From: Pelagibacteraceae bacterium | GTDB taxonomy: Bacteria; Pseudomonadota; Alphaproteobacteria; Pelagibacterales; Pelagibacteraceae | Assembly: GCA_008638015.1 (NCBI GenBank) | Contig: VTPD01000001.1 | Location: 1 to 64,000, forward strand | DNA: 64,000 nt | Reading direction: 5' to 3' | Shown here: piece after piece, positions 33,950-62,409 of the stretch | Layout: every line of letters starts with the position of its first letter | Numbering within the stretch: position 1 is the first letter of the stretch | The notes under the pieces: generated by a model | Database searches by the model: none | Told to the model about the DNA's origin: nothing | The model's input: the letters and a program-made list of their open reading frames with translations, nothing else | Program-made: the position numbers and the translations under genes

Positions 33950-34606
33950 TTAATGATTAAGAAAATATTTTCCTTCTTTTATTTCTACAAATTTTTTATC
34001 TTTTAATTTATTCAAAATTTTTTGTCTCAAGCGATAAAGGTGTGTTTCATAGGTGTGGGTATCAACCTCATCCGAATATGACCAAATATCTTTCATGATA
34101 TCTTTTTTAGTAGCGCCATCTTTTTTGCCATAAAGATAAATAATAATATCTAATTCTTTTTCAGTTAATTTAACTATCTTTCTTCCTAGTGACAAAGTTC
34201 TTTTATTTTTATCAATGATATAAGGACCCACTTCTACCTTGGTTTGATAATGAAATTTAAATTTCAAGATAGAGAGTTTAATAATTTTTTCTAAATCAAC
34301 ATAATTAATTGGCAATTGTAAAAAAGTACTAAACAAATTATCTTTTTTATAGTCTTTAAAATTTTTAAGATCGGATGATAAAAAAATTTTTGGAAACATA
34401 ATTTTTTTTACTTCATTTTTTTTTATTTTTTCTAATTCATCTAAAAAAAATAAAAAAACAAATCCATCTTGGACGTTATATGTTTTGAAAAGATTGTTAA
34501 CTTGTTTAAAGCTATCAAGTTTATTCAGGTTATATTCTGTAGATTGTTCACGCAAACATTCATAAAAAGTTTCTGAACCAACTGTTACTATTGAATAATT
34601 TTGCAT
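33950..34606 (-). CDS. OmpR/PhoB-type winged-helix regulator with degenerate receiver-like N-terminus
   Basis: C-term RTLSLGRKIVKLTEKELDIIIYLYGKK...DTHTYETHLYRLRQKI; N-term lacks receiver acidic/Asp residues. Confidence 0.8.
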   Translation of the reverse strand: MQNYSIVTVGSETFYECLREQSTEYNLNKLDSFKQVNNLFKTYNVQDGFVFLFFLDELEKIKKNEVKKIMFPKIFLSSDLKNFKDYKKDNLFSTFLQLPINYVDLEKIIKLSILKFKFHYQTKVEVGPYIIDKNKRTLSLGRKIVKLTEKELDIIIYLYGKKDGATKKDIMKDIWSYSDEVDTHTYETHLYRLRQKILNKLKDKKFVEIKEGKYFLNH

Positions 34607-59729: not shown

Positions 59730-60316
59730 TTTGCTTGATGTGTAAAATAATGAACAACTGGTTGTATGGGCATTCCCAATATAGAATTTAAGTCTCCCTC
59801 TATATGCGTAAATAATTTTTTTCCTTGTCCTTCTATTTGATAAACCCCATATTGTTGCAAAATACCTAGGTCTATTTCTTCTAAATAATTGTTGATTTCT
59901 TCATCAGATAAATTTTTCATTTTTAGGATACAGGTATTATTAAAATGCCAAACCATACTTCCATTTTTAGATACACAAATTGCATTATGTAGTTTGTGTT
60001 CCTTGTTATTTAATTTAAGCAAAATATTTTTAGCTTCCGCTTTGCTCACTGGTTTACTAATACAGACGTTATCCAAATCCAACACCTGATCTGCACCCAG
60101 GACATAGTGTTGCTCAAATTTACTACTTATTCTATTTGCTTTGTGTTCTGCTAAACTTTTGGCAATTGCAATACAGCTAGCTCCGTTAGCCATCATAGAC
60201 AGTTTAATTTCTTCTTCGTCTACATTCGACGGTTCAGCCCTTACTTTAAAATTAGCATCTTCCAAAACTTTTTTTCTTATTGCACTTTTAGAAGCTAAAA
60301 TAATATTATCAATCAT
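59726..60316 (-). CDS. maf: Maf-like nucleotide pyrophosphatase
   Basis: IILASKSAIRKKVLEDANF, VLGADQVL. Confidence 0.93.
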   Translation of the reverse strand: MIDNIILASKSAIRKKVLEDANFKVRAEPSNVDEEEIKLSMMANGASCIAIAKSLAEHKANRISSKFEQHYVLGADQVLDLDNVCISKPVSKAEAKNILLKLNNKEHKLHNAICVSKNGSMVWHFNNTCILKMKNLSDEEINNYLEEIDLGILQQYGVYQIEGQGKKLFTHIEGDLNSILGMPIQPVVHYFTHQAK

Positions 60317-61128
60317 GCATTTTTTTTAATCTCATAAATTTTAACTATCGCAGCGGCAGTTTCTTCCACTGATTTTCGTGTTACATCTATGGTTGGTATT
60401 TTATGCGAGGCAAATAATTTTTTTGACTTATTGATTTCGTCTTGGATTAAATCAATATTAGCATAGTTTGAATCGGGTTTATCATTTAATAAATTTATTC
60501 TAGTTTTTCTTATGTCCTCGAGACGCTTTGGGTCAACTACCAAACCTACAAGCATTGCTTTAGACTCAAATATATATTCAGGCACTGTTTGATGGGGGAC
60601 CAAAGGAATATTTGCAGTTTTAAAACCTTTTTCTCCAAGGTAAATGGATGTTGGAGTTTTGCTTGTTCTGCTTACGCCCATAATAATAATATCAGCATCA
60701 ACCATGCTTTCAAGTTGCTGCCCGTCATCATGAGCAAGCGTATATTGTATGGCTTCAATTTTTTTATAATATTCTTTATTTAATTCATGCTGACCACTAG
60801 GCCTTCCACTTGCCTTTTGTTCAAATAATTTTTCAAATCCTGGAATTAAATGATCCAAAACACCAAAGCAGGGAATACCAAGGGACTGACTTTGACTTTT
60901 AATAAAATTTGTCGTTGCGGGCTCAACTAAAGTATAAATTATAATCGAATTTTCAGTTTTTCTACATTTTTCAATTAATTGGGCTGTTTGGGCACTAGTT
61001 CTGATAAATGAAAAATGGTGAAGGTTATATTCTAAAGTTCTAAATTGGGCTTTAATTGCAAGAAAAATACGATCTAAAGTTTCTCCCGTTGAATCTGATA
61101 CTAAAAAAAAATTATATTTTTTGTTCAT
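60313..61128 (-). CDS. ppsR: PEP synthase/PPDK regulatory kinase-pyrophosphorylase (DUF299)
   Basis: FFLVSDSTGETLDRI, IIMGVSRTSKTPTSIYLG. Confidence 0.94.
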   Translation of the reverse strand: MNKKYNFFLVSDSTGETLDRIFLAIKAQFRTLEYNLHHFSFIRTSAQTAQLIEKCRKTENSIIIYTLVEPATTNFIKSQSQSLGIPCFGVLDHLIPGFEKLFEQKASGRPSGQHELNKEYYKKIEAIQYTLAHDDGQQLESMVDADIIIMGVSRTSKTPTSIYLGEKGFKTANIPLVPHQTVPEYIFESKAMLVGLVVDPKRLEDIRKTRINLLNDKPDSNYANIDLIQDEINKSKKLFASHKIPTIDVTRKSVEETAAAIVKIYEIKKNA

Positions 61129-61395
61129 AAGCTTGTTAATAAATATCTATAACTTAAAATTATACATTTATCATCATTGGCCAACTGGCTTATTCGACAG
61201 ATCTATTGTTTTTTCACAAAAAAACTAAGTTTAGTAAAAAAAAAATTTACAAGTTAGTTATGTTTATAACTTAAACAAATATGATAAATTATTCATAATT
61301 CTTATAAAAAAACAATGAACAACTTGTGAATAAAAACTTAACCCCAAAACTAACATCTCCTACCAATACCAATACTTTAATTAAATATTATATAT
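61129..61395. other. oriC: Candidate chromosomal replication origin (oriC)
   Basis: Longest gap in the window, AT-rich, between divergent ppsR and hemE; perfect DnaA box TTATTCACA (- strand, 61325-61333) plus three single-mismatch boxes. Confidence 0.65.
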
Positions 61396-62409
61396 ATGAG
61401 TAATTTAATCTTAAAGGCTTTAAAAAAAGAAAGACCTATCTGGTTAATGAGACAAGCAGGGAGATATTTAAAAGAATATCAAGTCATTAGAAAAAAACAA
61501 AAAAATTTTATCGATTTTTGTTTAAATTATAAAGCTGCAAGCAAAGTAACATTACAACCAATAAAAAGATTTGATCTAGATGCTGCAATAATTTTTTCAG
61601 ATATTTTAATAATTCCATATGGCTTGGGACAAAAAGTTAATTTTAAACATAACGAGGGACCTATTTTGGGTTCTTATAATTTAAAAGAATTTAAAAAAAA
61701 CAATAAACGAAAATTTTTATCAAAAGTTAAAAACGTCTATAAAGCAATTGAGTATACTAGAAAAAAATTAAATAAAAAAAAATCCCTTATAGGTTTTGCA
61801 GGATCTCCATGGACATTATTGGTTTATATTTTAAATAAAAAATCTCCGAAAAAAAACTTTAATTTAAATAAAATTATTCAAAATAAAAAAGAAGTTGATA
61901 GTCTTTTAAAAATAATTGAAAAATTTATTTATATTCATATTGAACAACAAATTAAAAGTGGTGCAGACACGATTCAGTTATTTGATAGTTGGGCCGGACT
62001 GTTAAATAAAAAAAATTTAAACAAATATTGTTATCAACCCAACAAAAGAATAGTAAAAAAAATTAAACAAAAATATCCGAACATTCCTATTATTTGTTTT
62101 CCAAAGGGCTTACATAAAAATATTGTGCAATTTTGCAATATAGTTAAACCAGATTGTTTAAGCATTGATAGTAAGGCAGATGTTAATCTTATAAATAAAA
62201 AAATATCTTCTAAAACAATTATTCAAGGAGGGCTCGATCCAAAGTTTTTATTAGGAAATAAAAAAGCATGTGAGAAAAAAGCGTTATTTTATCTAAGAAA
62301 ATTTAAACACAGGCCCTATATTTTTAATCTTGGTCACGGAGTGGACAAAAAAACCAAACCAACCGCTGTTCAGCGCCTGGTTAAAGTAGTAAGAAAGTTT
62401 CAATCATGA
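61396..62409 (+). CDS. hemE: Uroporphyrinogen decarboxylase
   Basis: RPIWLMRQAGRYLKEYQ, IIFSDILIIPYGLG, FNLGHGVDKKT. Confidence 0.97.
   Translation: MSNLILKALKKERPIWLMRQAGRYLKEYQVIRKKQKNFIDFCLNYKAASKVTLQPIKRFDLDAAIIFSDILIIPYGLGQKVNFKHNEGPILGSYNLKEFKKNNKRKFLSKVKNVYKAIEYTRKKLNKKKSLIGFAGSPWTLLVYILNKKSPKKNFNLNKIIQNKKEVDSLLKIIEKFIYIHIEQQIKSGADTIQLFDSWAGLLNKKNLNKYCYQPNKRIVKKIKQKYPNIPIICFPKGLHKNIVQFCNIVKPDCLSIDSKADVNLINKKISSKTIIQGGLDPKFLLGNKKACEKKALFYLRKFKHRPYIFNLGHGVDKKTKPTAVQRLVKVVRKFQS

Follow-up and report, generated by a model that had tools for sequence, protein, structure and literature searches.

The window, a stretch of 64,000 nucleotides from a Pelagibacteraceae genome, contains a 267 bp intergenic region (61129-61395) between two divergently oriented genes: ppsR (COG1806, Kinase-PPPase; 60313-61128, minus strand, Pfam PF03618) on the left, and hemE, encoding uroporphyrinogen decarboxylase (61396-62409, plus strand, Pfam PF01208), on the right. 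The original prediction placed a candidate replication origin in this gap and described it as the longest in the window. This was confirmed, the next longest gaps between open reading frames being 165 and 148 bp. The gap is 78.7% AT, compared with roughly 70% across the window, and both this composition and its position next to hemE and COG1806 are those expected of an alphaproteobacterial hemE-type oriC. Pfam assignments agreed with the names proposed for the flanking genes. Those on the ppsR side encode Kinase-PPPase (ppsR), Maf, AroE, CoaE, a DnaQ-like exonuclease, SecB and FxsA; those on the hemE side encode URO-D (hemE), ferrochelatase (hemH) and UPF0093 (hemJ). The one exception is rho, at 63914-65182 of contig C67, which was identified by reading its translation. 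The assembly containing the window is a draft of 1.09 Mb in 67 contigs, 95% complete. As the relatives found through ppsR bear the names Pelagibacteraceae, HIMB114 and Fonsibacter, we take the window to belong to SAR11 subclade III (Pelagibacterales). SAR11 bacteria, which are streamlined marine cells, count among the ocean's most abundant.

Five sites matching the DnaA box TTATNCACA with at most one mismatch were found in the gap, where 0.60 would be expected, and none of 1000 dinucleotide shuffles reached five. The four boxes listed in the original prediction are all present: TTTTTCACA (61210-61218, plus strand), TTATAAACA (61261-61269, minus strand; TGTTTATAA in plus-strand letters), TTATTCATA (61289-61297, plus strand) and the perfect box TTATTCACA (61325-61333, minus strand; TGTGAATAA in plus-strand letters). 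The fifth, TTATTAACA, lies closest to ppsR (61134-61142, minus strand) and had been overlooked; many relatives have TGTTAATAA, TGTTGATAA or TGTGGATAA at this position. The box at 61261 had been labelled a single-mismatch site, which is correct relative to TTATNCACA but not relative to TTATTCACA, from which it differs at two positions. The expectation that the boxes are conserved in relatives held best for 61261-61269, where TGTTTATAA is invariant in six of six same-genus sequences, and for 61325-61333, which reads TGTKAATWA in five of the six and TGGGAATAA in the sixth. The box at 61210 is partly conserved, as CTTTTCATA or TTTTTCATA in three sister genomes. The sequence at 61289 is not conserved in the sister genomes, and is probably a chance match. 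A degenerate box, AAACTAACA (61347-61355, plus strand), sits at the conserved box position closest to where unwinding would occur; of the 46 family sequences, 44 have AACA, CACA or AACC in this column. Exact copies of TTATTCACA are about as common genome-wide as a reversed control (13 and 10 respectively), so the perfect 9-mer is uninformative alone, and its counts were dropped as an origin marker.

The intergenic element is conserved as a whole. In the 46 distinct family sequences in which hemE adjoins the gap, its length always falls within 264-294 bp. Within the genus the strongly kept parts are the ppsR-side box region, TATAAC (61148-61153, plus strand), TGTTTATAA, TTAACC (61338-61343) and CCTACCAATAC (from 61359). 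All six same-genus sequences have TATAAC unchanged, and the HIMB114 group keeps it too.

Lying between divergent genes, the gap must contain the promoters of ppsR and hemE, and it could be merely their regulatory region, with boxes that are there by chance or that serve as sites in a DnaA-regulated promoter. Loci with rearranged neighbours bear on this directly. In the HIMB114 group, hemE has gone from the locus and the next gene after ppsR is rho, separated from it by 348-353 bp in four loci. Even so, these relatives retain the box on the ppsR side, both motifs (TTAACC and TAAAC) and the trio region. Loci of this group that lack hemE and have rho after ppsR are L047, L044-L046, L221 and L222. 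In three HIMB114-group genomes (G014, G026 and G034), the sole hemE match found is elsewhere and has 33-35% identity, suggesting that hemE was replaced by a distant homologue. Conversely, 10 genomes from a second family within the order (G037, G038, G039, G041, G043, G045, G048, G050, G058 and G060) yielded no ppsR. In this family maf adjoins the gap, which is 271-281 bp long and terminates in CCACAGG or a near variant, followed by ACTACTACTA or ACAACTACAAT ((CTA)n or CAACTACAAT), then TATATATA and then hemE. As the element persists both after loss of hemE and after loss of ppsR, it is not a by-product of the promoter of either gene. Together with box enrichment that leads the genome in complete relatives and a skew that switches at the gap in one of them (both described below), this makes a purely regulatory role for the gap very improbable.

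To place the gap on whole chromosomes, skew was examined in two complete relatives, each a single contig and covered completely apart from short masked stretches: G005, of the same genus as the window (1,284,727 bp), and G010, of the same family (1,160,202 bp). The hemE gene of G005 (G005:C1:358203-359209, L025) is split across two frames, by a frameshift or a sequencing error. In G010, strand-corrected GC3 skew gave an origin optimum at 1,091 kb (on a 1-kb grid) of 1,160 kb, with a likelihood ratio of 138.6, and positions from 1,083 to 1,098 kb were within 6 deviance units of this optimum. The homologous gap, at 1,090.03-1,090.31 kb, is within 1 kb of it. The detrended cumulative GC skew of the same genome bottomed out at 1,072.6 kb and peaked at 493 kb. 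The gap gained no support from third-position T/A skew in G010. The GC3 skew of G010 is strong support for the gap as the origin. Skew in G005 is weak: the raw GC skew had its minimum at 327 kb, 32 kb from the gap at 359 kb, and its maximum nearly opposite, at 1,016 kb. The corrected GC3 scan of G005 allowed a broad region, in which the gap was worse than the optimum by 2.0 and dnaA by 3.2, neither being rejected. The switch in gene orientation was best placed at 360-372 kb. For third-position T/A skew the best fit was at 360 kb and dnaA scored 11 units worse, although the sign was free in this fit and a region near 880-900 kb did about as well. The skew of G005 is thus compatible with an origin at the gap, and the coincidence of gap and skew minimum anticipated in the original prediction was borne out in these relatives, most clearly in G010.

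The complete relatives were also used to rank box density. By exact TTATNMACA sites, the homologous gap takes first place among the intergenic regions of at least 120 bp in both genomes (186 such regions in G005, 132 in G010). It also heads the ranking of all 270-bp windows for this pattern, alone in G010 and jointly in G005. A cluster of boxes above chance that leads the genome is what a hemE-type oriC should show. These results bear on whether the origin lies at some other site, such as next to dnaA or where raw skew is lowest in G005 (327 kb). In those complete relatives that were checked, roughly 63-73 kb separate dnaA from the gap, and the corrected scan of G005 leaves dnaA allowed. Against this, the dnaA position is 40 deviance units worse than the optimum in the corrected GC3 scan of G010, which strongly rejects a dnaA-adjacent origin, third-position T/A skew disfavours dnaA in G005, and exact TTATNMACA sites near dnaA amount to one in each of two dnaA loci and none in two others. 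We regard an origin away from the gap as even less probable than a gap that is only regulatory. The conserved blocks could also be those of a small RNA or short gene mimicking origin conservation, but this can be practically dismissed, as the gap has no Rfam match at E values up to 1 and no tRNA or tmRNA, and the conservation falls in box-like 9-mers, TTATTAACA occurring 57 times in the family gaps when 2.6 are expected.

The entire ppsR-hemE intergenic element (61129-61395, no strand assigned) is therefore very probably the chromosomal oriC of this Pelagibacterales bacterium. Our analysis bases this on the position of the element, its length and layout conserved in 46 relatives, the switch in composition in a relative and its independence from the genes beside it. 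As origins go it is an ordinary alphaproteobacterial one, in an already known place. The original prediction had likened the hemE/DUF299 context to that of the Caulobacter crescentus and Rickettsia origins, and this is indeed the published arrangement, hemE and COG1806 flanking the origins of C. crescentus and R. prowazekii (PMC1914354). The window shares with these origins the same neighbours in divergent orientation, a high AT content and several DnaA boxes. It differs in being shorter (267 bp, compared with 383-404 bp in the table of that paper), in lacking TTAA-N7-TTAA and WATCAN5WTR, and in the family box TTATTAACA. No paper joining DoriC and Pelagibacter was found in a literature search, nor was a sequence-level SAR11 origin found in the literature searched. 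The passages of PMC4033161 consulted state that the oriC of HTCC1062 was identified manually, and give no sequence; P. ubique is listed among chromosomes possibly divided unequally by origin and terminus (PMC2099444).

An AT-rich stretch is present beside hemE, where the original prediction put it (61376-61395, no strand), and is a probable DNA unwinding element. It has the same position in relatives, as TATATATA in the second family. It is preceded by an imperfect DnaA-trio-like repeat on the bottom strand (61360-61380, minus strand; 3'-GAT GGT TAT GGT TAT GAA ATT-5'), in which CCTACCAATAC is invariant in the six same-genus sequences. The published basal unwinding system (PMC8287927, PMC6669920) has the same order of parts as the window, namely a box, a short GC-containing spacer, a bottom-strand trio-like repeat and an AT-rich stretch, with the trio on the strand running 3' to 5' away from the box. 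The window differs from it in that two of its first six triplets have a middle G and its adjacent box is degenerate. We applied the published rule, under which a box carrying no more than two mismatches must lie 16 nt or less from at least three consecutive 3'-NAN-5' triplets. Owing to the G-centred triplets and the degenerate box, the window gap falls outside this rule, its longest NAN run being two and the adjacent AAACTAACA being far from consensus. Three sister genomes (L010, L012 and L013) have NAN runs of six, with variable nearest boxes. The second family has a near-textbook CCACAGG...CTACTACTA motif, and in most of its sequences CCACAGG lies at the place homologous to the degenerate box at 61347-61355. 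Over all relatives the trio statistic was modestly above that of shuffles (173 compared with 147, sd 8.7), and in one sequence of the second family (L227) the scan put the box in the wrong place; the case for oriC was therefore not rested on this statistic. Opening would, we infer, occur at the hemE side, since the position is conserved and the second family shows a clearer form.

Neither the CtrA consensus TTAA-N7-TTAA nor the IHF consensus WATCAN5WTR, both associated with hemE-type origins, occurs in the window gap; in the gaps of relatives the IHF consensus is near shuffle level (17 compared with 13.5). Three HU/IHF-family proteins are encoded. The window's genome has four OmpR-family regulators, of which one is a PhoB above cut-off, two are below every cut-off shown and one has no family match. 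None of the four passes as CtrA, the best score being 137 compared with a cut-off of 350, which belongs to a model named for Rhodobacterales. The four regulators of G005 match the same four by eye. CtrA is thus likely to be absent from the window's genome, the absence being likely rather than proven because the draft is 95% complete. CtrA sites do not strictly define a hemE-type oriC, since origins without them were reported in a 2007 paper. A 218-aa protein (window 33971-34174, minus strand) has an OmpR-type DNA-binding C-terminus, an N-terminal half unlike an ordinary receiver domain and no NCBIfam family match.

The CtrA-like pattern TTAA-N7-TTAAC is enriched in the gaps of relatives (20 compared with 2.1). 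It was rejected as a set of CtrA sites because the window's genome yielded no recognisable CtrA and TTAACA boxes 10-11 bp apart can create the pattern; we tentatively read these sites as phased DnaA boxes.

These features suggest how initiation might proceed. We infer that DnaA would bind the boxes spread over the gap (61134, 61210, 61261 and 61325), assemble towards the hemE side and transfer to the bottom strand on reaching the trio-like repeat. The AT-rich stretch beside hemE would then open for helicase loading, and two forks would depart, one towards ppsR and one towards hemE. As no CtrA was found, the timing of initiation is probably set by DnaA itself, and not by CtrA repression as in Caulobacter. 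A reliable oriC is required for growth estimates from origin-to-terminus read depth, and a conserved 270-bp element that persists as its neighbours change, with its proposed shifted box (see below), makes SAR11 initiation directly testable and origin annotation possible in draft genomes.

The part of this origin that deserves specialist attention is its box. TTATTAACA is the most enriched 9-mer in the family gaps, and position 6 of the boxes is A in 80 cases, C in 15 (1.2 expected), T in 9 (7.0 in background) and G in none; these position-6 and 9-mer counts come from 46 related sequences and are not independent. A genuine preference for A is likely, because drift towards AT should also yield T, yet T is only at background. 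The recognition helix of DnaA is GRDHTTV in all four proteins read and looks unchanged, so no obvious protein change explains the difference. That the DnaA box of the Pelagibacteraceae has itself shifted from TTATNCACA to TTATTAACA, with A and not C at position 6, we hold as a tentative proposal with a little less than an even chance of being right. If it is, origin control would depend on a box of non-canonical sequence and operate without CtrA.

Two further features of the 46 gaps were observed. Same-strand TNMACA boxes form 16 pairs 10-11 bp apart and 14 pairs 40 bp apart in the raw counts, as if helically phased. The CcrM motif GANTC is depleted, with 2 occurrences compared with 10.9 expected.
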